Both the position numbers and the translations under genes were made by a program. Below, piece after piece: positions 808-53,800 of a DNA stretch of 64,000 nt (position 1 is the stretch's first letter; each line of letters begins with the position of its first letter). Origin of the DNA: Gaeumannomyces sp. JS-464 (lineage: Eukaryota > Ascomycota > Sordariomycetes > Magnaporthales > Magnaporthaceae); the NCBI GenBank assembly GCA_002197995.1, contig NGZR01000003.1:5642001-5706000 (forward strand), read 5' to 3'. The notes under the pieces are model-generated. The model was not told where the DNA came from. It saw nothing but the letters and a program-made list of their open reading frames with translations, and ran no database searches.

Positions 808-1228
808 ATACCCCCTTTTTAAACCGCAATTGGTTTTTTAACTGCCGATTAATACCACGCTATCCCCCTACTTTGTTTAGTTTTGCCGCGTAACGTCGCT
901 TTTTTGGCGTGGCGCTGCCGTTTTAGTTATAACACGTCGCGTTATTGCCAGTAATAAAACGCTCCTTCCCGATTTGAAAGTCGCCGCTTTACCTTTTGCT
1001 TTTAGGCGCTTCCACCCGTTGCCTTCCTTTTTTCCCTTTCCTTTCCGTTCCTCCTGGGAAAACTTTTCCCCTTTTTTACGTTTATTGTTAATAGCGCATC
1101 GTTATTTTTTCCTCTTTTTGCTCGCGCGCTTTCGTTTTTTCGCCTGCGTATCGCTATCCTTTCCCATTTCGCCCTGCGGTTTTCGTTTTCGCCGCCGTTA
1201 CGATGGTTTCGATTTAAAGCAAGCCCGG

Positions 1229-1689
1229 TGTTACAATTAGGGGTTTGCTTTTAAGGTAAAGCACTTCGGGGGAGGAAAGGACAATATTGCTGGTTTGGTT
1301 AATAGGGGAACACGTGATTTAAAAGGACAATCTAATTGCTTGCCCCAGGGAATGCCTAGGAGCTAACTTAGGTTAACTAATGCAAAAGCCTTAGTTAAAA
1401 CTATTTAGGACAATAGGAAATCCTTTTTTTTATAACGATTTTGCCTGCTTTACAGCTTTTTTAAATATGTTAGTTATATTTATAACTAACATATTCCCGT
1501 TGGATATGTTAGTTATATTTATAGCTAATATATCCTCGCTGGATATGTTAGCTATATTTATAGCTAACGTATCCTGCGTTTATTACGTGGTGGGTTGCTA
1601 CGTAACCGGGCGCCGGGACGGGTTCCTTTAGCCCTTCCTTTTGTTTTTAGGCCGCCCCGCATCCCCCCTTTGGGAACGCGGTCGTAATA
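1229..1689 (-). repeat. 3' LTR of element B, with three tandem palindromes
   Basis: A 461-bp LTR containing three tandem 39-bp units beginning at 1465, 1504 and 1543. Each unit holds a near-perfect 26-bp palindrome (atgttagtta...taactaacat) able to form a hairpin. A C-run and an 'accgggcgccgggacggg' GC-rich block follow, close to the 3' end. The right copy has the same layout, interrupted by element C exactly between the second and third palindromes. Confidence 0.92.
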
Positions 1690-1889
1690 TTAGGTTTCCC
1701 CTTTTAAGCTAAATTTTTTTGGCCATCGTTTATCGCCCCGTTTTTTATTAATAGTAAGTACTTTCCTTTTTTACTAATTTCCATCCTTTATATTTAATAA
1801 AATGTTTAGTCGGGTGCAAAAATGAAAACTTACGCGTTTAACCGTTAAATGCGATAACTTTTTTTTCGATTACTCGTATTGCTATTTCC

Positions 1890-2237
1890 ATGCCTTTTTG
1901 TTCCAATTGTAAAACCGACGGCCTTAATTAATGCTTAACGTTTTTTAACAATCACTTTCGCTGTAAAAACTGTGTCCGTTAAAAGCGTTTTTAATGCGAC
2001 ATTTTAAACCCTGCTTTTAAGCATTTCCGTTATTATAATTTCCAATACCTTTGCGCGGAAAAAAAGTTAAAAGGTGCGAAAGCGGAACGTCGTTTTGTTA
2101 ACGTCAAAATTAAGCGTTTGCGAAAATAAAAAAAACAATAGCGCGAAAAGCTTACTCGGGCGATTCGCCGTGGTATTAATTTTGTGGAGGAGTTAAAACG
2201 TGTCGAGCGGGAGGAAGCCGACCGGGAGGCCTATTAA
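1890..2237 (+). pseudogene. Antisense zinc-knuckle/coiled-coil ORF of element B
   Basis: Plus-strand frame opposite to pol, between the chromodomain and the 3' LTR. From ATG at 1890 it reads MPFCSNCK with a later RCKNCVR, i.e. two CxxC pairs and two further Cys, then a Lys/Arg/Glu-rich helical stretch ending in ELKRVEREEADREAY and a stop at 2235-2237. The five internal stops (TAA) are all explicable as RIP of CAA/CAG. Similar CxxC plus coiled-coil hypothetical proteins occur repeatedly in fungal repeat regions (general knowledge). Function is unknown; nucleic-acid binding is only a guess. Confidence 0.55.
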
Positions 2238-2829
2238 GCTGCTTCGCAACCTGGGCTATCCTTAGCTCTTGCCGTTTCCTTCGATTAGCAAATGCCCGGG
2301 GTTAACCCTAACTTAAACCTGTTTGCCTTTTTTAATTCCCGTAAGTTGTTTTCTTTTTTAACGCTTTTATAAAACCCGTGGCATATTAGGTATAGCTTTG
2401 GTTTTTTCCTGCCGAGGTTATAAGTTTAATTTTTAACGGGTTCGTTTATTATAATAATATTATCGTTAAACTAATAGTGCTATTATGGTAGTGCTTTTTT
2501 TTTATTTTTTTTTTTAACCGTTCGTAATAAACCTTTTTGCTTTATTTGGTTCCAGTAAGCCGTGCTTTTTTTAACAACTTTTTTAGGTTATATAGCGTAA
2601 TAGTAACGCGTTTTACTTAATTAGCTAAAGGTTTTAGGTTTAATTCCTAATGCGATTATTGCTAGGAATTTTATTGTTAACGCGTCGGCGATGGGGTTTT
2701 TAGCTACTTTTGCTTTTGCTAACCTTTTTGTAAAGGCTTTTGCCAGTACCCCGCTAAAGCTTTTTAGCAATTTATAAAGTTAGTTGCTTTTTCCCACGTA
2801 TTTTCCTCGTAGCCGTACTTTTCCATTTA

Positions 2830-5800
2830 ATTAAGTACTTTTTAGGCTTGTTTTTTAGTTTATAGTTTAAAATTTTTTCGATTTCGTACTTTTATTTTAG
2901 GTCGACTTTTATTAATTCGTCGCTTTTAAAGCCCGGTAATGCTAATTTAAATAGGGAAATATAAAAAACCGGGTGGAATTTTATAATTAGCGGTAATTGG
3001 AATTTGTAATTAACGTTTAAAACTTTTTTTAATATTTTAAACGGTTTTAGTTTTTTATAGTTTAGCTTATCGCTTAGTCGTTTGGTTTTAACATTTCGTC
3101 GAAAAAGATAAACGCTATCCCCTTTTTTAAAAGTTAGTTTTTCGATTTTTTTTATTTTTTTTAAATAGTTATATAATGCTGTAGCTTTTTTAGTTTTACT
3201 TGGAAATGTTTATGCAGTTTAATAAACTTCGTTATTTGTATTTCCGCTATTAAGGCATATTTTTCTGCTTTAGGTTTTTTATACGCTATAAGCGTAAACC
3301 TGTAATTCGCATAAAACGGTGTAATTCTTATGCTTTTATAAATTAAGCTGTTATAAGCGAACTAAGCTATAAAAAATAATTTTACCTAGTTATTTTGTTT
3401 ATAATTAACGTAATAGCGTAAATATTGCTTTATGGTTTGGTTTATTCGCTTTATTTATCCATTTGTTTAAAAGTAATAAGCTATGGATAAAAAGTACTTA
3501 GCTTTTAATAAAACCGTAAGCCTTTTCCAAAACTTGCTTATAAATAGCTTATTTTTATCCGTAATTAAACGGTTTGGTATGCCGTATTCCGTTATTACGT
3601 GCTTAATAAAAACGTACGTTAACCTAATAACGTTACTACTTTTTTTATACGGTAAAAATAAGGCATATTTGGTAAACTTATTTATTATTACTAATATATT
3701 ATCGTACTTTGTTCCAATTATTCATTTTTTCGATTAGGAAATTTTAATAACGAAATTTATAGTAACTTTTTGCTATGCTTTGTTCGGTATTAATAAGGGT
3801 TGTAATAACCCGTATGGTTTATGCTTATTGGCTTTGTTTTTAGCATAACTTTCGCAATTTTTTATTACGTTTTATATTTCGGCTCGAGTTTTTGCGAACT
3901 TGTAATGTTATTATAACCGTTTTTACGTTTTTTTTTTTACGTTTTGATAGCTATATGCTAATTAGCTGTAAATTTGTTAAAATTTTTTAAGGGTTTAAAC
4001 TTTTCCCTATTGGACCGTTTTAACGAATATTTTTTATGCTAAAATTAAAAATCTGTTTGGTTTTTCCGTTAAAATTACCCGTATTTTTTTAAATATTGCA
4101 ATTTAATAGTCCGGCCGTCGGTTTAAAGCGTTTGCCCGGCCGTTTTCCGACCTTTTCCGGTATTCGATTCGAATATCGTAGTTTTGCAAAAACTCGCTTT
4201 AACGAATTTATCGCTTATTTAGGTTTTTGCTAATAGTAAAATATGTTAGGTTTTTATGGTTTGTATATATTATAACCTAATATTTTGCTTTATAAAAATG
4301 CGGTCGCCATTTTTCAAATGTTTAAATTATTGCTAAAAGTTTTTTATCGTAAATTTAATAGTTTAATTTAGGTTTATTTAATTTTTGCGAAAAAAACGCG
4401 TAAAAGTGCAACTGTTTTTAGTCGTTTCGTTATCCAAGTTAACCGCTAATCGCGTAATTTAACGCGTCGGTTTTAACTTCGAAAGGTTTTTTTAAGTTTG
4501 GGAATATTAACATTGGTTTTTTAATACGGCGTTTCGTAATTGTTTAAAAGCTTTTTATTTTTATTTTCCTTAATGGAATTAATAATTATTTTTAGTAAAG
4601 TTCGTAAATAATATAACGATTTTGCTATAATTACGGATAAACCGTTTATAAAAGTTTAAAAACCTTAAAAACTTTCGTATTTTCGTAACGTTTTTAAATA
4701 TAAGCCATTTTTTAACTTTTTCGATTTTTTTGGGATTTATGCAAATTTATGCAAATGTAATTACGAAATTTAAAAAAGCGACTTTTTGCGAATGCTATTC
4801 GCATTTTTCTAGTTTAATAAAAAGCTTTATATTAAGCAGTTTTTAAAACACTTTATATACGTGCTGCTCGTGCTTTTCCATCGTTTTTAAAAAAATTAAA
4901 ATATCGTTTAAATACGCGAAAACGAAAATGTTAAAATACTCGCGTAATATATGGTTAATTATTTTTTAAAACGCAATTGGTACGTTAATAAGCCCGAAGG
5001 TTATTATTAAAAATTTATAGCATTTAAACTTTATTTTAAAAGTTGTTAGCCATTTTTAGCCCTTTTTAATTTGTATTAAGTTATAAGCTTTTCGTAAGTT
5101 TAAAGCCGTAAAATATTGGGCTTTGCCGAGTTTATTTCGTAATTCGTCGATAAAAAGTAAAAAATACTGATTTTTAATCGCAGTTTTATTTAATAAGCGG
5201 TAATCGATGCATATTCGTTCCGTTCCATTTTTTTTCCATAAAATCTTATATTTAATTAAAAAATCGAAAGGTTTAATATATCCTTTTATAGGTTTTCTTT
5301 TAATTGCTTTTTTAACACCTTTTATTATCGAGGGCTAAATTGGTATAACTTTTAATATTTAAACTGCGTTTTTAATTCAAGTTTAATTTTAAAATCGAAC
5401 GGTTTATATTTAAAAAGCACCGTTTTTAGGTTTTTTTAAACAATTTTTCGTATTTATAATATTTTTTAAAATATTCGCAAGCCGTTTTTTAATGTTAATT
5501 AGGTTATTTTAATCGCTTTTTACTTTAAATAATCGTATATTTGTTAATGCTAAATGCAAAAGTGGATTATTAAATCCTATTACCGTTATAACTTTTTTCG
5601 TTGCTTTTTATGCTTATAATTTAAGGTTTATAATTGGTAAACCGTTTTAGTTACTTATAGCTTTTCCTATTGGACTTAACCAGTAGCCCAATTTATCCGT
5701 AAGTTATTTTTCCTAAATTAAAGAATTCCGAAAATAACGTTTTTTTTTTTATATTTAGCTTATCTAATAATAATAACGTTTTCCCTATTTCGGGTATGTA

Positions 5801-8200
5801 ATGTTATTAGTTATGTTTTTTAATTAATTTATTTTTTATTATAAGCAACGGGTATTTTAACCGTTTTTAATTAGTACGGTTAATATTTTCGTTTTATAGG
5901 AATTTTATACCGTTTAACCGCTTATAACGATACGTAATCGCTTTATATTTAATAATCGATTATTATTTTAACCTTTTTTTTGAATATTTTATCCGGAATG
6001 TTAATAAGTTGTATAGTTAAATCGATTTTGCTATTGCGAGGGTTTTTATTAGTTTTTCTTTTTTTCCATTCCGTGCTTTTCGTTTAAATGGTTTCTTTAC
6101 TTTTTTAATAAAAAAAAACAAATACTGTATATTCGTTTTTTTTATCCGGGTTAAACGGCCCGTACGTTTGCGTAATCCCTTAATGCTAAGCTTCCGCTTT
6201 TTATGCCATATGTTTTTCGCATTTCGTAATTTCGCATTTTTTTAATTAAACGTTTTCGTAATACATAGTATTAGGTACCGCTCGTTAAGTTTAAAAATTG
6301 CGGTAAACTTGCCGGTTTAAACTAGCTTTTACCGTGGCAATTGGAACGCTAAACAAGGCTTAACTTTAAGCTTATTTTTTAACTTTTGTAAAAAAAATCG
6401 TATTTAAATTTAAGTTATAAATGAAATTTGCATTTTTCGTAAATGCATTTTGCTTAAAAAGGTGCAAATGTTTGGGGTGTTTTATATTAATGCTAAAGTG
6501 GTTTTCGGGTTTTCTCGTAGCCTTTTTTGGCTTATTTACATTGTTAAACCGATAATTAGCGTATTTAACTTCCTATTAATTATTAAATTACGATAAAAGT
6601 TAGCCGTTATTTTCGTTTGCCGGGGTGGCGTGGTATAACGGCTATTTGGGTGTTTTAAAACCTTAACGTTTTAAAAGCATTCCGAAATATTAAAAGGCGT
6701 AAAAGCGCGCTAGCATTTCCAATTTGCTTAGCTTTTACGAATTATAAGTGTAAAAGTTTCGCCGTTTAAACTTTCCGCTCGTTTTTAAAACTTAGCTGTT
6801 TTAAAGCTTTAACCGTTTTAATTTAATTTAACGTCGGTATTTAAATTTTCCGACTTTTAAAAAAGGTGTGTTTAGCTTAAAAGCTTTTTTCGGGTTTTTT
6901 TTTTCTTTTAAACCACTTGCTAAAGTTATTTCTTTTTAAGCTTTATAAAAAATAACGTCGTTTTTTTTTCGAATTCGTAAACCTGAAAGCGACGCGCTAC
7001 TTTTCCTCGCTATTATATTTAAGCTTTATAATTTTAAACATATAAACGCTTTAAAGTTTTCGAAAATATTATCCGGTAACCTTTTTATTAAATTGGTATA
7101 TAGCATATAACTCGTTGTAACAGCTCGTTTAGCTAAACGCCGGCTGGAAATATAGCTTTTTTTATTAAGCTTTTTTACGTTTATTAAAAGTTAGCTATTT
7201 AGCAGTTATTATTTCGCTAAAAGCAATTTTGCTTTAACGTAACTAGCTTAATTACATTTAAAGCATTTTTTTTTTTCGAGTTTTACCTTTGCTTTTTTTG
7301 CTACTTTTATTACTAATAAGTGGCTTTCGCATTAAAATTTATAAAGTTTACATGCGTTTTATAAGCCGTAATAAGCTGCTATTTAGCCTTTTTTTTTAAT
7401 TAGCTTTATTATTTTATACCGTACTTTTAAAACTATATCCTTTTTTTTTATTATCGTTTATACAATTTATCGCTAATACAAACCGCGTTTTTAACATAAT
7501 CCGTAAAAAAGTTTAAGCGATCCTGTTTTACGAGTTTATTTTTTACGTTTTCACGTAATCCGTTATAAAAATGCAGCATTAACGTAGCGTTGTTTTAGTT
7601 AAGCTTAATGCTAATTCGTTAAAAGTCCGCTGCAAATTTAATTGCAGGCCTTCGCTGTTTAAAAGCAGCAAATCTCTTTTCGCGATTTGGGTTTCGTCGA
7701 TTATATTAAACACTTTTTCGACCTTTTTTCCGAAGGTTTCGAAATTGGCGAAAATAAATTTAATAGCTTTTTAGCTATTTTTATACCTTTTAAAATAATC
7801 ATTTTAAGTTAGCTAAAACCACTTTTTTACTTTGCCGTTTAGCTTGGTAATAGCGTAAGCAACCTTTTGTTTTTCGCTTACAAATTGCTGTTCGTAAAAC
7901 TTAAAATAGCTTTTGCATTTGGTGAAAAACGTTTTAAACTTGCCGTTTTCCCCTTTCGTAAAGGTCCGGGAACGAAAACTTATACGTTCGGATTGCGATA
8001 AGTGCTTTAAAAAAACACCAACTTCGTAATAAGTTGTTTTACTTCGGCCTAACCTTTGGCAATTTCGCTCGTTATAAGTTTGAAAAGGCTAACCGTATTA
8101 GCGGTTTCGTTAAAGTCGTACTTAATACCGTTAAAAGTAAAAACTGTAATTTTTTCCTTTTTAAGCTTTTTATTACTGCTCGTTATAACTGCGCTATTTT
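2830..8200 (-). pseudogene. RIP-inactivated gag-pol of element B
   Basis: The minus strand gives a Retrotrans_gag-like segment at about 7.8-7.5 kb (IDETQIAKRDLLLLNSEGL). RT at 5.25-4.88 kb has ICIDYRLLNKT, IDELRNKLGKAQYFTALNL and FGLINVPIAF, with the catalytic YxDD reduced to YLND. RNase H at 4.51-4.13 kb has FFSQKLNKPKLNYQIYDK and ENGRANALNRRPDY. The integrase C-terminus at about 3.15-3.0 kb has HPVFYISLFKLALPG, followed by a chromodomain (KKYLIKWKSTA). Stops in all parts and Asp-to-Asn changes show it is dead. Transitions of the RIP type account for the damage. Confidence 0.9.
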
Positions 8201-8236
8201 TTCCTTTAACGAGGTATTAAACAAAATTAGTTAAAA

Positions 8237-8552
8237 TGTTACAATTAAAGGTTTGCTTTTAAAATAAAGCATTTTAAAGGAAAAAAGATAATATCGTTAG
8301 TTTAATTAATAGAAAAACATGTAATTTAAAAGGATAATTTAATTGCTTGCTTTAAAAAATGCTTAAAAGTTAACTTAAATTAACTAATGCAAAAGTTTTA
8401 ATAAAACTATTTAAAATAATAGGAAATCTTTCCTTTTTTTATAACAACCTTGTTTATTTTACAGCTTTTTTAAATATATTAATTATATTTATACTTAATA
8501 TATCCCCGCTAAATATGTTAGTTATATTTATAACTAATATATTTTAACTAAA
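8237..8552 (-). repeat. 5' LTR of element B, left segment
   Basis: First 316 bp (in plus-strand order) of the right LTR of B, from TGTTACAATT to the target duplication ctaaa (8548-8552) created by element C. It aligns with 1229 to about 1542 of the left LTR and is more AT-converted. Confidence 0.92.
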
Positions 8553-43785: not shown

Positions 43786-44769
43786 ATACGTGCAAGCTGT
43801 ACTTTTCTACGCCGCCTGAGTTGAGGGCAGCCTGCGCTCACCATTGGTCTCTTGGTGGCTATGCAGCCCCATAAACCAGTGGATCTCCGTTCAGGCAGGC
43901 GAACAATTGGGCCCAACAACAAGCACGGTTCAACATTTGTAATAAAACCGCAAAGAAGAAGAAAATCGAGACTTAGCCCCTGGAAATTTGAGGATCTCTC
44001 ACTGCTACGTTCAGTCTAGTGCCCAAGGTGCGCTCGTTGTCATCATAGGATTGACTTGCAACTGCCTGCATTCGCGCTGCCGTGGTCCGCCTTTGTCGCA
44101 TACGCGACGAAAACGAGCCACATGGGGCAAAAGCCACTTAATACATACACGTACCAATAATGCCCTCCCGATTCGAATCCTCGGCCTAGTGGCTTACATG
44201 GCGCATGCAGCATGGAGGGAACCCCGCGTCCGGACAGCATCGTGGTGATACTCCGAGCCCAATATCTGGCAGCCTTCCCTACCCACCACCATATCTTTGG
44301 GGTCCGTTTGCTTAACAACTGCAGCTCAGCTTGTGGAGGTGGCCACTCGGCGCATAAACCGTCCAGAGTGACCGAATATATACATAAGCCCCGAACGCCA
44401 CAGCGGTTCTAGAACCTCCCCAAAGCTGTACGAGATGAATCCCATTGGATATTTCATTTTCAGCTATCCCGGTTCTAATAACACGTCGGAAGCAGCCATA
44501 GGGACGAGTGCGGCTCAAACTCGACTGCCCGGGTCTTGCAACCCTTATTTACGCCAGCTCTTCTCGCACCTCCGGGGCGGGCAAGGCCTTTTCATCCTTG
44601 CTTTGTGAGCTACAAGCAGCAATCTTTTGGTACTCGGCCCATCGCTAGCTGATCTTGTGAATACATTTCCGTGCCGAACTTTAAATATCCTAAAGCATCA
44701 CTTCTGCCTACGCAACTTCCTGCCTTTGTTGATATAAGAAACATCGACCCCTAAGCCAAAAAGAACATC
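43786..44769. other. Intergenic, upstream of HET gene
   Basis: A stretch of about 980 bp without a convincing gene. The last 300 bp, CT- and CA-rich, is the likely promoter and 5' leader of the HET gene. Confidence 0.4.
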
Positions 44770-47700
44770 ATGTCACCTCACGTCCCGGCCCCGGTTGCCA
44801 AACACCCCTTTCAAACCGAAATCGACATGGAAGCGAGACACAGCCAACTCCCCAAGTTCGGCAACCCCAAGGTCAAGAAGTTCAGCTACGACAGGCTGAG
44901 CAACATGCACAAGCGCATTCGCCTGCTCACTCTCAACTCCGGGGCTAAAGAGACCAACGAGGTCGAGTGTCGGCTGTTCGAGGGCGAGATCAGCCAGGGC
45001 CAGGTGTGGCGCGTCGAGAACGGCGTCGCTCTGAACGAGGTTGTCTCGTACGAAGCGCTCTCCTGGTCCTGGGGGACCCTGGAGCCCAGGTACCAGGTGC
45101 TGATCCGCAAAGGCGACGAGCGGCACGAAAAGGAGGCGTCCCCGGACTTGGTGTGGGCCCTCCGATACCTCCGGTATCCGAACAGGGACCGGGTGCTCTG
45201 GATCGACGCGCTGTGCATCGATCAGGGGAACGTCGAGGAGAAAAACCACCAGGTCCAGATGATGAGCCAAATCTACAGCTACGCCGACAGCGTCTGCATC
45301 TGGCTGGGCCTGGACGATCGCAACACCCGCATGGCCATCAAGTTCATCCAGAAGGAGATTCTCAAGCTCGAGCAGTTTGACGACCTTTGCCAGGACCCGG
45401 CGAACTCTCAGAAGTGGCAAAGCCTGCTGCTGCTGATGCAGAAGCCGTGGTTCTTCCGCCGCTGGGTGGTCCAGGAGATCGCGCTAGCCAAGCAAGCGAC
45501 CATTTATTGCGGCCCGGACCAGATCGATTGGAAAGACTTTTCGGTGGCGGTCGAGCTGTTTGTCGAGGTCGAAACAGCTACGCACCGGCTGAGTGAAGTG
45601 ATACAGAAAGATCCTCAATTTTTCCATGTTCCGGGCTGGTTCGAATACGTTTCCGCTCTCGGCGCAAGCCTGCTTGTCGAGGCCACGGGGATGATCTTCC
45701 GCTATTACAAGTCGAAAGCGCCTTCGAAGGTGTTGTCGCCAATCGAGGAGGCCACGAATGGCGGCGCTAAGAAACAGCGCAGCGGATCTTCCGGGGGGTC
45801 GGACTCGGGCGCCGAGAGTGCCGGGCACTCGTATGACTTCCATGATATTCCCTCCGAGTCGGAAGACGACGAGCTAGAACACCCTCTAGATGGCCACGAA
45901 GGCGAAGAAGGCGGTAGTGGTGTTGCCATCAATGGCAAGCAGGCCGCGCCGCCAGGTACCCCTGGCATCGGCAACTCCCAGAAGCCCACGAGCGAGAAGA
46001 AGCCTGAGCCGCCCGAGGACCCAATCTCTCAGCGGCGGCCTTTGCTAAGTCTCGAGTACCTCGTCTCCCGTCTGTCCATCTTCGAGGCCACCGAGCCCCG
46101 CGATGCGATTTACGCGCTCTTGGCAATCGCAAACGACGGCTACCCGGCTGCCGAAGGATCAGGGGACGACGCGCTGAATTCGCTGCACGCGTTTCTGGGC
46201 AGCCCGGCCGGCCAGCAGAGGCAGAAGGCGTTCCCCGTCGACTACGGCCGCTCATACGCGGATGTGTGTCAGAACTTTATCGAGTTCTGCATCAAGAAGA
46301 CGAACAACGACTTCAGCGTCAGGGGTGGGAGCTGGACACGCGAGAGAACGGACAGGACACGGGCAATGGACATCATATGCCGACCCTGGGCCCCCGAGCC
46401 GAAGCCCGGCCTTTCGATACGATTCAACCATCCTGCCCAGCCTGACCAGAACAAGAGGGAGGTGGACGAGTACTGGAAAGGCCACTTCAAGCAAAACAGG
46501 ACCATCCGGCAGGCCGCTTGGAAAAAGCACAAGAAAAAGGCTAAAGAGGAAGGGAAGGCACCCCGCAAAAGGGAGGAGTTCTTCGACCCGCCGTGGAAAA
46601 AGTACTTTCCCGTGAAGAAGCATAATAACCGCGCGACTGAAGACGAAAGGAGGCGGCAAAGCTGCCTACATGGATACCCAGACTGGCGGGCGCGCCCTTC
46701 GCGATGCACAACCAGGCGGGCGTGCACATCATGAAGATGGGACGCAAGAATGCAGACCCTCTGGTCGGCTTTCCCAACTCGCTGCGCAACTACGACGCGG
46801 CGCAGGGAATCGACGTCGACATGGAGACGCTGAGCTTCCGCAAGAGCCGCCGTTTCGGGACCCATTCCATGTTCATCAAGGGCTTCATCCTCGAGATGAT
46901 CAAGTCGACTGCGCATCCTTCACAGTCTGGCAACATCCCCAAGAATGGCTGAGCATGGCGGGATGGAAGATCAAAGACTTTAGCGACCCCTCCAAAGACA
47001 AGGGACCCCCAGACGAGTTCTGGCGCACGCTCGTGGCCGACAGAGGCCGGGACAGCCGGAACCCGCCGTACTACTACAAGAAGGCGTGCAAGGAGTCCAT
47101 ATATAAGGGCGGCCTGCAGAGCGGGTCCGTGAATACGTCGGACCTGATCAACAACGAGCGCAACTCCATCGTCGCCCAGTTCTGCCGGCGCGTCCAAGCC
47201 GTTATTTGGAACCGATCAATGGTAAAAACCGACCAAGGCAACCTCGGCATCGCGGCCAAAGGCGTCAGGCAGGGCGACCTTGTGTGCATCCTTTACGGCT
47301 GCAGCGTTCCCGTCATACTTCGCGAGAGGGAAAAGTCGCAAGAGGAGCTGGACGAGGATAGCGAGGAGGAAGAGATGCTGCAAGAGGTCGAGGAGATAAT
47401 GCGGCGCGGCATGGCGACAATAAAGAGCAACAGAAGGCGCAAGACCGCATACAAGGGCATCCCCGAGGTTCCTCATGCTGATTGGAAGCGAACACCCAAA
47501 GGAAACTATGTAGGAACCGACGGGAGGCCAAAGTGGACGAAGCAGCAAGTGAGACAGTGGCTGCGGGACTACAACGGGAAAAAATACGAACGAGCCGGGA
47601 CCCCATGATCAGAATCGCCAGAAATCCCAGGGGATTAGTCATGGACATACCAGCGGACAAAGAAACGCAAGCAGGCAGAGGGACAGCAGAAGGAAGGACA

Positions 47701-48551
47701 AGACCGACGAGTTTCCAAGGCCACCGAGGAGGTCACGCAACGTCTACTACGAGTTCTTGGGCGAGTGCTATATCCACGGCATGATGGACGGAGAGGCCAT
47801 GGCTCGCAAGGCGAACTCTGAGGAGGCGGAACTCAAAAAATGGAAGCAGTTCATCCACTTTCGCAAGGAACAAAAGGAGCAGGCATCAACGGGCGAGCCT
47901 GAAGACAAGAGGAAGAGGGCCAGCAAGGTACCCGAGGAGCTCAAGAAGAAGGCAAAGGAGGTACAGGACGAGATCGCCAAGCGCACAACGTACCACCAGA
48001 GGCGGAAAGAGAAGTACGAGGCCAAGGTGCGGGAGTGGGAAGAGCACGAAAAGAGCATGGCCCGGGAACACCCCATCAAGCGCACAAACTCGCGCCCGAC
48101 AGCCAGCCGCCGGACCACGATAGCCTCGGCCTCGGGCCTTTCAAGCAGGACGTTTTCGCGGCAGGCCACTCTCGGGGGCACCGGCGACGCCCTCGGGGTC
48201 CAGCGGGCGCGGGACGAGAACGACGGAGACGGCGACGGGGCCAACGGGGACACGGGCGGCGGGGGCACCCTCACCACCACCATCAGCAACGGCACCAGCC
48301 GCTCGAGCTACCACACGGCCAAGAGCAGCATCAAGAGCCCCGAGCCGCTCCACCCGGTGCAGTTCGACAGCATCGACCAGAGGCAAGAGGAGCGGGTGGA
48401 GTGGGCGGCCAGCCGGCTGGATGTGAAAAGGGCGCCCGAGAGGCTGCGGAAGCGAGCCGGGGCTCGGCCGGAGGAGCAGGCCGAGGCCGACGGGTGGGAA
48501 TTTTTCAGGGATAATAAGATGCTGTGCGACACCATTTTCGAGCTGAGGTAG
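44770..48551 (+). CDS. Large HET-domain protein, about 1260 aa
   Basis: A heterokaryon-incompatibility (HET, PF06985) type protein; the family acts in nonself recognition and cell death. The HET domain lies at about residues 95-250: SYEALSWSWGT, VLWIDALCIDQGNVEEKNHQ, MMSQIYSYADSVCIWLGL and WFFRRWVVQEIALAKQ. A low-complexity acidic insert (about 320-410) is followed by FEATEPRDAIYALLAIAND. The C-terminal conserved part reads GRKNADPLVGF, PPDEFWRTLVADRGRD, ERNSIVAQFCRRVQAVIWNR, GDLVCILYGCSVPVIL, GECYIHGMMDGEAM and a terminal TIFELR. Frame breaks occur near 46659 (A run), 46943 (missing G) and between 47600 and 47740. Restoring four bases gives 1262 codons. A basic coiled-coil and Ser/Gly-rich segment (47.8-48.4 kb) precedes the end. 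No introns are needed. Confidence 0.85.
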
Positions 48552-49222
48552 ACGGCGGTTGTTGGGAGTGACGGGCGTCGCTGGACGACGACGGTTTAGA
48601 CAGCCCTGAAGGGTCCGTCTGGTGGAGTCTCCGCACGCACTCGGATGCATGTTCTGGTAGCATGTTCCTTCGAATCATTTGTCTCGAACACTGTTAGTGT
48701 GGTGAGTACCTACCTACCTAGGTAGGCGCCCATTGGCTTGCTATTCCCTATTTCAATGCTCTTCTCGGTTTGCACTGCAACGGCACGCACGCCCCATTGA
48801 CGAGCGCGAACGGGCCGCAACGTTTGAGGGTGGGCAGCATTCGACCGTTGAGCTTTGCCCCATCAGGGCATTGAGCGATCCTCTTCGCGCGGGATGGCGA
48901 TGTGAATTGCACGGGCTAGCTTGGGCTATTTTTGCGCTTGGAGCATGGGCCCGCCCTGTTCCCCAGACCCCAGCGTAGCAGCAAACGCTTTGGACGCATA
49001 AACAACCCCGACGTCAATCGCCTCCATTCTGTCCCTGCTTTTGCCAAAAGCGTCCTGCTGGAGCACGGGGCGAGGCTCGCGCAGGGTCGACGTTGCAGTT
49101 GGCATCACCGGAATAGCAATGCCAAAAGAGGCAATCTGGGACAACCCCCGCAGCGCTCACGATGCCACTGACAGAGCTCAAGCCGCCCGATGCTTGTGAA
49201 GCGAAAGAGATGGGGAAAGAAG
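48552..49222. other. Intergenic, no gene seen
   Basis: Includes a short tacctacctaggtagg palindrome-like stretch near 48710-48726. Otherwise it is promoter-like sequence upstream of the repeat-peptide gene. Confidence 0.4.
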
Positions 49223-49230
49223 TATATAAA
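49223..49230 (+). promoter_or_regulatory. TATA box of Kex2-repeat precursor gene
   Basis: TATATAAA, about 160 bp upstream of the ATG at 49388. The leader in between has four pyrimidine blocks of the type ttttccttttgtctttt, typical of well-expressed fungal genes. Confidence 0.6.
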
Positions 49231-49387
49231 CAGAGTCTCCCGCTGGTTTCGATGAATCAACTTCTTCTTACTTCGCCAGCCCACCAGCCAACTCTACCCT
49301 GTCTACTCTTTCCTGTTGTCTTTTCCTTTTGTCTTTTTTTTCTTTTCCTTTTGTCTTTTTCCTTTTGTCTTTTCCCCAGCCATCCCA

Positions 49388-50464
49388 ATGCAGCTGTGGC
49401 CCTCCCTCTGCCTCGCCGGCCTGGCGATGGCCGTCCCTGTCCAGCCGAACGGCGGCGGCGCCAACGCGGTCCAAAGGCGCGAGCCCATCCTCCCGCCGAA
49501 CCACCCGTCCGTCACGGGCGTCCAGGGCAGCGACAACGCGATCGAGAAGCGCGAGCCCAGCCCCAAAATGTCTATGCCTAACACGTGCGCGTCGCTTGAG
49601 TGCACCCACCCCGAAAGGTTCGGTCGCAAGCCCCGTGTTAAGCCGCCGATCACCCAACGCAGCGACGACGCCCTCGAAAAGCGCGAGCCTAAATCCAGGC
49701 GGCCGCGCCCCTTTTACGGGGAAATCCCTGAGCGAACAACCAGCCCGATGGTTCCGCCCCTACAAAGGACCCCCAAGCGGGCGGTTAAGCGCAGCGACGA
49801 CGCCCTCGAAAAGCGCGAGCCTAAGTCCGGGCGGCCGCCCGCATTTACGCGTGGATCCCTGAGCGACAAATCACCCCGATGGTTTCGCCCCAAAAGCGCA
49901 GCGACGACGCGATTGAGAAGCGCGAGCCCAGCCCCAAGACGCCTAGGGTTGGCAACTGCATGTCGACTGAGTGCACCCACCCTGAAACCATGCCCCGTTA
50001 TAAGCGGCCGATCATCCAACGCAGCGACGACGCGATTGAGAAGCGCGAGCCTAAGTCCGGGCGGCCGCGCCGCGTTTACGCGTGGATCCCTGAGCGACAA
50101 ATCACCCCGATGGTTTCGCCCCAAAAGCGCAGCGACGACGCGATCGAAAAGCGCGAGCCCAGCCTTAAGGGGCCTATGGTTCCCAACTGCATGTCGCTTG
50201 AGTGCACCCGCCGGGAAAGGCCCGATCCCGAGCCCGTAATAAGCGGCCGATCACCCAACGCAGCGACGACGCCCTCGAAAAGCGCGAGCCTAAATTCCAG
50301 CGGCCGCGCCCCATTCACAGGTACACCCTCTGCGAAAGTCTAGCCCGGTGGTTTCGCCCCAACAAAAGCGCAGCGACGACGCCCTCGAGAGGCGCTTCGT
50401 CATAGTAGACGGGCCCTTCCGGGGCATCAGGCCCGTCTTCACCAAGCCCGGGATCAGGACCTAA
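49388..50464 (+). CDS. Kex2-processed repeat peptide precursor, about 359 aa
   Basis: A secretory precursor likely cut by the Golgi protease Kex2 into many peptides. Signal peptide MQLWPSLCLAGLAMAV is followed by eight copies of the cassette SD[DN]A[IL]E[KR]R, seven of which continue EP; an initial VQRR-EP precedes them. Between cassettes two peptide families alternate. One has a C-x4-C loop (PNTCASLECTHPE, GNCMSTECTHPE, PNCMSLECTRRE). The other is aromatic/proline-rich (RPFYGEIPERTTSPMV, then RVYAWIPERQITPMVSPQKR twice, then a diverged last copy). The last cassette releases a distinct tail FVIVDGPFRGIRPV...GIRT. EP after KR suits X-Pro dipeptidyl trimming. Three single-base losses (near 49845, 50237, 50312) shift the frame; restored, the CDS is 360 codons. 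The architecture is that of KEP/RiPP or pheromone precursors, but no UstYa (DUF3328) gene is in the window. Confidence 0.8.
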
Positions 50465-51353
50465 AGACCGAGATATGCCTTTTCGTTTCTTTTCCGGCTT
50501 CGGTGTCTTTGTGAGGCCGAGGCAGTCGGGCTTGACAAACGCCGACACTTTCGGTTCGGCTTTCCCGAAGTGGTCTGATCTTATCTGACGCATCACGCGC
50601 CGTGCCTGCACTTTCGTTGTTCTTCTTTTCTTCTGCTTGCCTTTCTGCGTTTGCTGTTTTCCTGCGTTGTTTTTCGCTACCGGACCCTTCTACCTTCCTT
50701 TCACCTGTTATTGCATTTGCACTTGCTTTTCTTGTCTGTTTTTCTCTGTTTGTTAGTCCTGCTTTATCATTCTCACCGCGCCTACCCCAGTCACCACCCA
50801 CCATGGGTTCCCCAGTTCGGCATGGCCAGCTTGTTTTTTTTTTTTTTCCCGTCTGTTCGTTCTTTCACCCGCCTTGTAGTTTCGATTTTCTTGCATAGGT
50901 TTACAGGCAGCGCTTACGTTCCGCACCTTTTGAAGTTGCGTGGAACGTCCCGGATCCTCTGGTTATCGGCGCGCTGTCTGCTTTCTCCCAATACAGAAGT
51001 TTTTGGCTGTTATTCACGAATCACGCGAGACGGTGTGCCTGGTGCCTGAGGGCATCTCTTGGCGATGCGACCCAAACTAACCATGTGAATCCTTCGTCAG
51101 GCAGCATCGCCCAATTTGGTCACTGCACACAAAATCGATCTGTTGGTCGCTTCGCCCCAATCTCGGCAAAAATGGGGGGTGGCCTTGCTCGAGCGGAGCG
51201 GCGCCTGAAATTGCACATGAATATACCTGTGTCCAGCCAGCGTGAGATCGTGAGCGGCGCCTTTCGTTTGTCTGCTTTTGCGCCAAGTTAGCCTTGGTTT
51301 GTCGAGCTTCAGGGTCCCCGGCAACTTGTCTGTGCTATCGCTCAATAACCCTG
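50465..51353. other. Intergenic, no gene seen
   Basis: 3' region of the peptide precursor and promoter of the membrane-protein gene. It contains a 12-base T run near 50828. No domain was recognised in its short open frames. Confidence 0.4.
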
Positions 51354-52968
51354 ATGGCAGACGCAGAAACGATGTCGCCAGCAACACTGTCGACAACCCC
51401 TGTCGCGCCATCGCCCAACCACGCTAGCCCAGCGCGAACAGAAGAAGACGAGAAGAGGCCGGTGACGCCACCATCACCGCTAAGCTCAGCTGTCAGGACA
51501 CCATCGCGGACGCCATCGCCAGAGCCGCCGCAAACAACAGGCGCACCAGCTGGGGCGCGAGAGCCCAGCCCCGGCCAAGCCCCGGGCTCCCCCGCGGCCG
51601 CCGATCATGGACCTGCCGCGGCCAGCGCCGAGCCGGCCCCTACCGGCTCCCGCACTCTCACCTACGTGCTCTCGGCGAGCCTCCGCGACGAGAGCGTCGA
51701 CGACCCGGATCCGACACTGGCGGAGCGGCTGGCTGCGGCTGACCAGCACTGGGCCTGGAAAGTCGGCATCCGCGCCTCGATCTGCATCGTTGCAGCGGTC
51801 GGGATCGGGTGCGCCGCGTGGATTGTTGTCAAGGCAATCCCTATGGAAGCTGAAGGTTGGACTGGAGCATATACTTACGATGGACCAACCGCTTTTGTCG
51901 GCTTGGTGGTGGTAAGATACCTCCATTTATGATCCCCCCCGATGGACGCACGAGATTGACAAACAAACCTCGCAAAAGTTCGCCGCGTCCGGCGTCGGGG
52001 GAACGACCGAGATGCTGGTGCGCTTTAGCCGCCGCTCACTCCGCCCGATACACCCTGGCGCCATAATCAGCATGGATCTTATCCTTTTCATATGCTTCGC
52101 CTGCTTGCTTGGATACTCGATTCCGGCGGCCAGGACCGTCGCCGGCTTTGGCAGAAACCCGGAGTACATGCGCGATCCCATTACCAACTGGCTATACGAC
52201 GGAAACTACTTCCTAAACCAGACCACCGATAGCTGGGAATACCGCATGAACAAAATATTCCCGGCAACAGCTTCATGGAATGGAACGCCACCTCCGGACA
52301 GTGGTACGCGCCCAACACCATCCCGGGCTACAAGATCCAGCGCAGCTGCCGCGGCCGGTGGAACTACGGCTACACCGACTGCGCGGCCCAGGACGCCTTC
52401 GTCAACGGCATCTGGCGCCAGAAGCCCACCCGCCTCGCCGTCGGCGTGGCCCTCTGCGTCGCCGAGGCGCTGCTCCTGGCCGGCCACTTCGCCCTCTTCG
52501 TCTGGGCCTGCGTCGACTGCGCGCGCCGCAACCGCGTCAAGCCCGCCCGCGCCCTCGCCCGCCAGATGATCGCCGACATGGTCGACCGCGGCGAGCTCCT
52601 GATCCCCGACCGCCGCCGCCGCCGCCCCCGCGCCCCAGCCCGCCGAGTTCACCCCCGTGCCCGCCCACATTCGGCGGGCCGTCGCCGCTGCTGCTGCTAC
52701 TGGTGCCGGTGGCCAGCACCGGCGACGCCGGCGCGGCGGGCGGGATGACCCGAGCCACTGGGAGTCGCTGTATGGGGCGTACGATCCCGCCGACAGGCCG
52801 CGCGAGGGCGAGGCGCCGCAGCAGCCGCATGTACCATTCCAGCAGGCGCCCTACGTCCTGCCCTACGGACGCGGCACGCCTGGCTGGCGGCGCTCCAAGG
52901 CTGAGCCGGTTTATGGTGGGCCGCCGGCTCCGGTGGCGCAGGAGAGGGAGACTGAGCGGTATGCTTAG
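51354..52968 (+). CDS. Four-pass membrane protein of unknown function
   Basis: Two exons, 51354-51911 and 51979-52968, with a 67-bp GT-AG intron (GTAAGA...AAAAG). The N-terminal 110 residues are disordered, rich in Pro/Ser/Ala/Thr (SRTPSPEPPQTTGAPAG). Hydrophobic segments follow: ASICIVAAVGIGCAAWIVV, PTAFVGLVVFAASGVG (spanning the splice), IISMDLILFICFACLLGYSI and AVGVALCVAEALLLAGHFAL. A loop between the third and fourth carries NQTTDSW, MEWNATSGQWY and two Cys (RSC, TDC), i.e. probable N-glycosylation and a disulphide outside the membrane. The tail is cytosolic, Arg- and Pro-rich. Frame losses near 52262 (CCC run) and about 52620 (GCC/CCC run) must be bridged. The layout is tetraspan (MARVEL-like) but no family is certain. 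It neighbours the peptide precursor; a shared role is untested. Confidence 0.65.
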
Positions 52969-53300
52969 CGAGGACCAGGGTTCGGTCGGGCACACCCCCT
53001 GCCGTTGTCCAGATATGTCCTTGATCACGTCATAATCTCTAATGCTGATTCTTCTCGGACCTCTTTGTCGCTCTGCATCGTGGCAATCTCGGCGTGTTCA
53101 AGCGGATTCCCACAAAATGACCCAAACCTTGCGCTGATGGAAATAATGTGTGACCTCACCCCCAGCTGATCAAGCCAGGTTAAGTTGTATTGCGCTGAAT
53201 ATATACCCGCCAACCCGCATAACTCCTCGCCTTGATCCCAAGTATTCTCTTCTCCTTTATCCTACATCTTTCTTCATCGTATGTTTGATTGGGGGTGCCT
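52969..53300. other. Convergent intergenic region
   Basis: Lies between the 3' ends of the plus-strand membrane protein gene and the minus-strand secreted protein gene. No gene was seen. Confidence 0.4.
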
Positions 53301-53800
53301 TTACTGGCCCGGGATGAGCGTGCAGAGGTCACGACCGCGGTCTTGCTTTGTGGGGTCACAGGTGAGCTTGGTGTTGACGACGCAGGTCAGACCGACGCCT
53401 GTGGAGGTTGGCAGCGCCTCTCATGTTAGCACATCTATCGTCTATCGTCAAGGAAGAAACGGTAACGACGGCAAAAAAAAAAAAAAAAAAAAAAACCACT
53501 TACAGCCCTCGCGCGTCCTCGCGGCGGGAATGCAGCGGCCCGGGCCGCCGTTGTTGCAAATGTCCTGCCTCAGGTTGACACCGTGGTTGCAGCAGCCGCC
53601 GTTGGCGATGGTGCGGCCGTTGTTGTTGGCAAAGGCCCGGGGGGGGCACGCCTTATCAGCGTCGCCGAGTCGGCCACCAGCTCCTCGCTGGCGACCTCGA
53701 TCAGGTCCCGGACGACGTTGCGGACGCCCTCGTTGTCGATGATGGCGGCCGAGCCGACGGCCGCGAGGGCGAGGAGGACGGTGGAGATGGAGAACTGCAT
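53301..53800 (-). CDS. Secreted Cys-rich protein with Kex2 site, 131 aa
   Basis: Exons (minus) 53800-53504 and 53398-53301; the 105-bp intron is GTAAGT...CCACAG. Signal peptide MQFSISTVLLALAAVGSA is followed by an acidic propeptide (DNEGVRNVVRDLIEVASEEL). A dibasic LIRR site then releases a mature domain with nine Cys: CPPRAFA, GGCCNHG, QDICNNGGPGRCIP, EGCVGLTCVV, LTCDPTK and DLCTLIPGQ. The splice joins EG(T) to GCVGLTC in phase, which fixes the intron. One base is missing near 53648 (just after the dibasic site); restored, the CDS is 132 codons. It is probably an extracellular disulphide-rich effector or defence-type protein. No family was recognised. Confidence 0.75.
53473..53495. repeat. 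23-base A run inside intron of secreted gene
   Basis: In the sense (minus) strand this is a T run beginning 8 nt after the 5' splice site of the 53301-53800 gene. Confidence 0.9.

Follow-up and report, generated by a model that had tools for sequence, protein, structure and literature searches.

A candidate Kex2-processed repeat protein with several peptide types, and its diverged paralogue, in a Gaeumannomyces genome

Is there, in a filamentous fungus, a single secreted chain laid out so that Kex2 would free peptides of more than one kind from it? The question is raised by a locus of Gaeumannomyces sp. JS-464 (assembly GCA_002197995.1, 53 Mb in 34 contigs) that lies within a 64,000-nt stretch of contig NGZR01000003.1, positions 5,642,001 to 5,706,000. 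We call this whole stretch the window and its contig C23, and coordinates are those of the window, forward strand, unless a contig is named. Yeast cuts its mating-pheromone precursor into peptides, and we consider it probable that the gene at 49388..50464 encodes a secreted Kex2-processed repeat protein (KEP) with processing of the alpha-pheromone type. Judged from its translation, the secreted chain would probably release several short peptides, which belong to two or three kinds. A sequence-only reading of this DNA had proposed a Kex2-repeat precursor in which peptide families are combined, and the present analysis supports that proposal, chiefly through an uninterrupted paralogue with similar cassettes.

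Segment map of the window copy

An ATG at 49388 opens the KEP frame, the translation of which begins MQLWPSLCLAGLAMAVPVQ. The N-terminus is hydrophobic and ends in AMA-VP, the same start is kept in the paralogue, and a putative signal peptide, MQLWPSLCLAGLAMA, can be placed at 49388..49432. The signal peptide of the sequence-only reading thus stands as a signal-like start, seen in translation and 90% identical in the paralogue, with a cleavage site that is a prediction. From this start the first frame continues through QRR-EP and ILPPNHPSVTGVQ to cassettes 1-3, and cassettes 4-8 are spread in pieces over other reading frames. The segment after QRR-EP, which reads EP-ILPPNHPSVTGVQ-G (49481..49528; translation and paralogue match), would be released from the N-terminal part of the chain as a third peptide type; the sequence-only reading had counted two families and a tail, all of which are present, and had overlooked this third segment. 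Upstream, a putative promoter with a TATATAAA-type box and a pyrimidine-rich 5' leader (48924..49387) are common to the paralogue.

Eight near-identical cassettes, mostly followed by EP, had been described, and all eight were found. Their consensus is SD[DN]A[IL]E[KR]R, with EP next in seven of them: SDNAIEKREP in cassette 1 (49529..49558), SDDALEKREP in cassettes 2 (49661..49690), 3 (49793..49822) and 7 (50262..50291), and SDDAIEKREP in cassettes 4 (49900..49929), 5 (50023..50052) and 6 (50131..50160). These seven fit SD[DN]A[IL]EKREP, and cassette 8 (SDDALERR, 50372..50395) lacks EP and continues as SDDALERRFV. When a degenerate cassette pattern, which misses cassettes 1 and 8, was run against the 53-Mb genome, it gave eight matches, six in the window gene and two in one paralogue, and the reversed-pattern control gave none. 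Thus, the cassette repeats exceed what chance would produce.

Between the cassettes lie segments of two families. The three C-x4-C copies that had been reported are all present, each as C-x4-C-T: CASLECTHPE (49559..49660), CMSTECTHPE (49930..50022) and CMSLECTRRE (50161..50261), the third with TRR where the others have THP. The aromatic family has four members, as the earlier reading had it, but its tally of three clear copies and one diverged becomes two identical 16-residue copies of YAWIPERQITPMVSPQ (49823..49899, and 50053..50130, the latter preceded by a dibasic RR), one diverged copy, FYGEIPERTTSPMVPP (49691..49792), and one remnant that ends SSPVVSPQQKR (50292..50371). A C-terminal tail, FVIVDGPFRGIRPVFTKPGIRT, followed by the stop (50396..50464) was recovered by translation, in agreement with the unique tail that had been claimed. 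With C for the C-x4-C type and Y for the aromatic type, the order is C-Y-Y-C-Y-C-Y-tail, so that both families hold and their strict alternation does not.

The paralogue and the change in its peptides

Using the first KEP piece as a tblastn query, we located a paralogue on contig C12. It belongs to the diverged counterpart, placed by blastn on the opposite strand at C12:8289464-8294079, of a block (48234..53334) that runs from the 3' end of the preceding gene through the KEP gene into a downstream gene. The paralogue begins MQLWPALCLASLAMAVPVQPDG, which is signal-like, and no stop interrupts the 275 codons that follow from its ATG; it therefore has the continuous reading frame expected of a KEP, which the window copy as assembled lacks. 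It contains three [SR]ED[AT]LEKREP cassettes and one VEKREP, hence four EKREP, and none of 20000 codon shuffles of the paralogue attains even two. Two C-x4-C-THP segments stand between segments without cysteine, and there is one C-x5-C segment in addition. Towards the C-terminus it carries ILLPNHPSVTGAQ, and its tail ends in IRT, as does that of the window copy. The aromatic YAWIPERQ peptide is absent from the 275-codon frame. A single PDB sequence match to the paralogue (E 0.64) was taken as chance.

The two copies in this genome are the relatives that we compared. Their blastn pieces longer than 300 nt are 68-84% identical, and short pieces reach 93.5%. Counted over aligned columns, identity is 86% for the upstream gene (its 3' end), 85% for the downstream gene, 84% for the promoter (48924-49240, 41 gap columns), 69% for the stretch from there to the ATG (49241-49387, 61 gap columns), 90% for the signal-peptide region (49388-49456) and 58% for the repeat region, where 701 columns are aligned and 246 hold gaps. 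Since the repeat region stands at 58% against 84-90% in the two neighbouring genes, the promoter and the signal-peptide region, the peptides predicted to be released have changed fastest. Of the long coding-region pieces in the blastn comparison, the ILPPNHPSVTG segment (ILPPNHPSVTGVQ) is the best kept, at 93.5% over 62 nt. It lies N-terminally in the window copy and towards the C-terminus in the paralogue, and because it has moved it scores 62% in the collinear alignment. The downstream gene (51354-53334), duplicated along with the KEP gene at the 85% given above, looks membrane-protein-like by eye; its scanned pieces gave no Pfam match.

The repeats within each copy could also be set against one another. 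Cassettes 1-7 of the window gene have a pS of 0.38 and a pN of 0.035, and adding three paralogue cassettes gives 0.35 and 0.066. With pN well under pS, the processing sites are constrained as protein, an argument weakened by the fact that repeats within a gene can homogenise. The corresponding pS and pN values are 0.16 and 0.17 for the three window C-loops and 0.35 and 0.22 when two paralogue C-loops are added, figures that are indicative only at 30 nt per loop. All five loops were picked by a pattern demanding both cysteines, and the conservation of the cysteines is therefore not counted as evidence. On these sequence comparisons, the predicted mature peptides evolve faster than the processing sites. 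The result is a paralogous pair with near-constant processing sites and changing peptides, which is useful for asking whether mixtures of peptides act jointly.

Origin of the frame changes

We analysed the window copy as assembled, with no base restored, and in that form it has no single continuous frame. Its cassette starts are spaced by 132, 132, 107, 123, 108, 131 and 110 nt, with remainders modulo 3 of 0, 0, 2, 0, 0, 2 and 2, which amounts to three frame changes of the same sign in 1077 nt. They fall inside the second aromatic segment, the third C-x4-C segment and the aromatic-type remnant. Introns were rejected as their cause, for like segments have spacings that differ by about 1 base (107/108; 131/132) and not by intron lengths. 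Gaps between exon matches of chaperone genes in the same assembly measure 55-184 nt, a range that, together with the presence of a HET-domain gene, suggests a filamentous ascomycete.

Sequencing error is the likelier cause. The same chaperone genes, located by HSP70 and Cpn60_TCP1 profile matches, contain 10 frame changes in 25.5 kb without room for an intron, counted from match boundaries where neighbouring matches lie less than 40 nt apart. These fall in six of 18 gene clusters (HSP70, 1/8; Cpn60_TCP1, 5/10), eight of the 10 have the sign seen in the KEP gene, and all three TCP1 genes found on C23 are affected. Three-frame translation of one HSP70 gene shows two such changes within about 125 nt.

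The competing explanation is that the window copy has recently become a pseudogene and the C12 paralogue alone is active, which we regard as unlikely. It draws on the excess of frame changes over the average of the 18 chaperone genes, at which 0.42 would be expected (P 0.009), and on the divergence seen in cassette 8, in the final aromatic segment and in the third C-loop, where TRR stands in place of THP. At the rate of the three C23 TCP1 genes, the expectation is 1.48 (P 0.19). Against a pseudogene stand the similar, mostly same-signed frame changes of the chaperones, the fact that each repeat-bearing frame is open across its own stretch, and the retention of the promoter region between the copies. 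Sequencing error remains our preferred explanation. The locus also hints that annotation pipelines may miss KEP genes whose frames are broken in indel-rich assemblies.

Gene models of this assembly need care more generally, as chaperones change frame at, for example, C1:7197157-7199045 and in the TCP1 genes on C23. By eye, the HET-domain gene upstream of the KEP gene (44755-47608) also seems to change frame twice with no intron.

Predicted processing and comparison with known precursors

From the layout we infer secretion, cleavage, disulfide closure, expression and function as follows. The precursor would enter the secretory pathway, Kex2 would cleave after KR at every [IL]EKR site, Kex1 would trim the exposed KR, and a Ste13-type dipeptidyl peptidase would take off the EP that follows, freeing several short linear peptides. 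The first family would comprise peptides with a C-x4-C loop, which may be closed by a disulfide, the second the aromatic YAWIPERQITPMVSPQ, and the third ILPPNHPSVTGVQ. Profile searches of the genome found one Kex2 P-domain, two DPPIV_N and one STE2 match. An [IL]EKR followed by EP corresponds to a Kex2 site plus an XP dipeptide for Ste13, as in the alpha-pheromone precursors described in PMC6339444 and PMC9769878, and this Ste13 signature, EP directly after KR, occurs in seven of the eight window cassettes and in the four EKREP of the paralogue. Removal of XA/XP dipeptides from a Coprinopsis KEP expressed in Pichia is reported in PMC9769878.

The aromatic segments finish in KR before the next cassette. 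The C-type segments of the window copy join the next cassette through QR and not KR in all three cases, whereas those of the paralogue finish in KR. Given that QR precedes the next cassette, the window C-type peptides have uncertain C-terminal ends and may retain the spacer SDDA[IL]E. When the window pieces are cut singly at KR only, three fragments begin EP-S (C-type) and four begin EP-K (aromatic-type), and the spacer SDDA[IL]EKR is freed as its own fragment three times; two C-type and two EP-K fragments are bounded by KR on both sides within one piece. With the pieces cleaved singly in this way, the window gene yields the three or more similar fragments between dibasic sites by which KEPs are recognised.

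Set beside KEPs by their published descriptions, the window gene looks like an additional member of this established class. A signal-like start and short repeats between KR sites are common to it and to KEPs as described in PMC6339444 and Umemura 2020 (PMC7329392), and several repeat types within one protein are likewise on record in PMC6339444. There, Le Marquer et al. (2019) count 79 such proteins among 1193 KEPs, 77 of them with two repeat types and the other two with three. Neither the four window KEP pieces nor the paralogue has a Pfam match, and the comparison is one with published descriptions. If expressed, the window gene adds a KEP to the minority that carry several peptide types. 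A literature search worded for two different peptides from one fungal Kex2 precursor found none, and among the matches listed for 'EKREP' all were unrelated by title. In PMC7329392, pheromone-like segments are described as mixed with others in ccg-4 of N. crassa and in the Rutstroemia homologue.

The peptides probably serve the fungus as an extracellular signal or in interactions. The Ste13 signature has been proposed as a marker of hormone- or pheromone-like KEPs (PMC6339444). Deletions of Coprinopsis kep genes gave no detectable phenotype according to PMC9769878, and for this reason signalling should not be assumed. A more specific version, which we hold to be quite unlikely, is a two-component signal in which a conserved C-x4-C-THP disulfide-loop peptide would be made in fixed proportion with a partner that is swapped between the paralogues. 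If true, YAWIPERQ in one copy and unrelated segments in the other would serve as partners, giving a different pair per copy.

The sequence-only reading had also suggested RiPP products, with UstYa genes to be looked for beyond the window. In such a case the locus would encode a precursor of cyclic dikaritin-type RiPPs, of the ustiloxin or phomopsin kind, derived from the tyrosine-containing peptide. The Kex2-repeat layout is common to the precursors of ustiloxin, phomopsin and asperipin-2a, YAWIPERQ does contain a tyrosine, and P450 pieces flank the gene at distances of about 17 kb upstream and 19 kb downstream. However, a genome-wide search gave at least 10 UstYa (DUF3328) matches, none within 0.5 Mb of either copy. 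The nearest on the same contig lies 566 kb away for the window copy and 4.57 Mb away for the C12 copy. For comparison, a DUF3328 gene accompanies 22% of KEP genes in PMC7329392, at a mean distance of 3.09 genes. The KR-EP that we read as a Ste13 signature is foreign to such precursors, being absent from those of toxic cyclic tetrapeptides and epichloecyclins according to PMC6339444, and the YxIx core of ustiloxin and phomopsin (PMC7329392) is missing from the window gene. The Pfam scan took in 33 stop-to-stop translations or ORFs, namely the four KEP pieces, the paralogue and 28 frames from the C23 side, 26 of which were drawn from 51 codon-scored frames of a 144-kb stretch. This sample of the C23 neighbourhood revealed no coherent tailoring cluster. 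The suggestion is thus not borne out, and we consider a dikaritin precursor highly improbable.

It is likewise highly improbable that the window gene is the fungus's mating alpha-pheromone precursor. The [LI]EKR-then-XP layout for Kex2 and Ste13 is shared with alpha-pheromone precursors (MFalpha, ccg-4/ppg1), STE2 is present in the genome, and no rival precursor was identified by the strict pheromone pattern W-C-x3-G-Q-x-C-W, which has 0 sites genome-wide. The ascomycete alpha-pheromone core is W-C-x6-C-W or WxW, and this core is missing from the window gene, the loops of which span four residues between the cysteines rather than six and contain no tryptophan. The aromatic peptide was rejected as an alpha-factor-like candidate, since VYAWIPERQITPMVSPQ aligns with yeast alpha-factor no better than shuffles do (5018/20000 match its score), and it is missing from the paralogue. 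A loose pheromone pattern gave 15 scattered sites against 8 in the reversed control, no two of them within 1 kb of each other. STE2 itself lies at C30:2562054-2562788, in a genome that nevertheless has no site for the strict pattern.

The KEP gene's neighbours on C23 are the P450 pieces, the HET gene, an arabinofuranosidase, a mannosyltransferase, an ankyrin protein, a dehydratase and a short-chain dehydrogenase. A repeat at 1228-8443 of the window, possibly transposon-derived, recurs in several copies in the 90 kb around the C12 paralogue.
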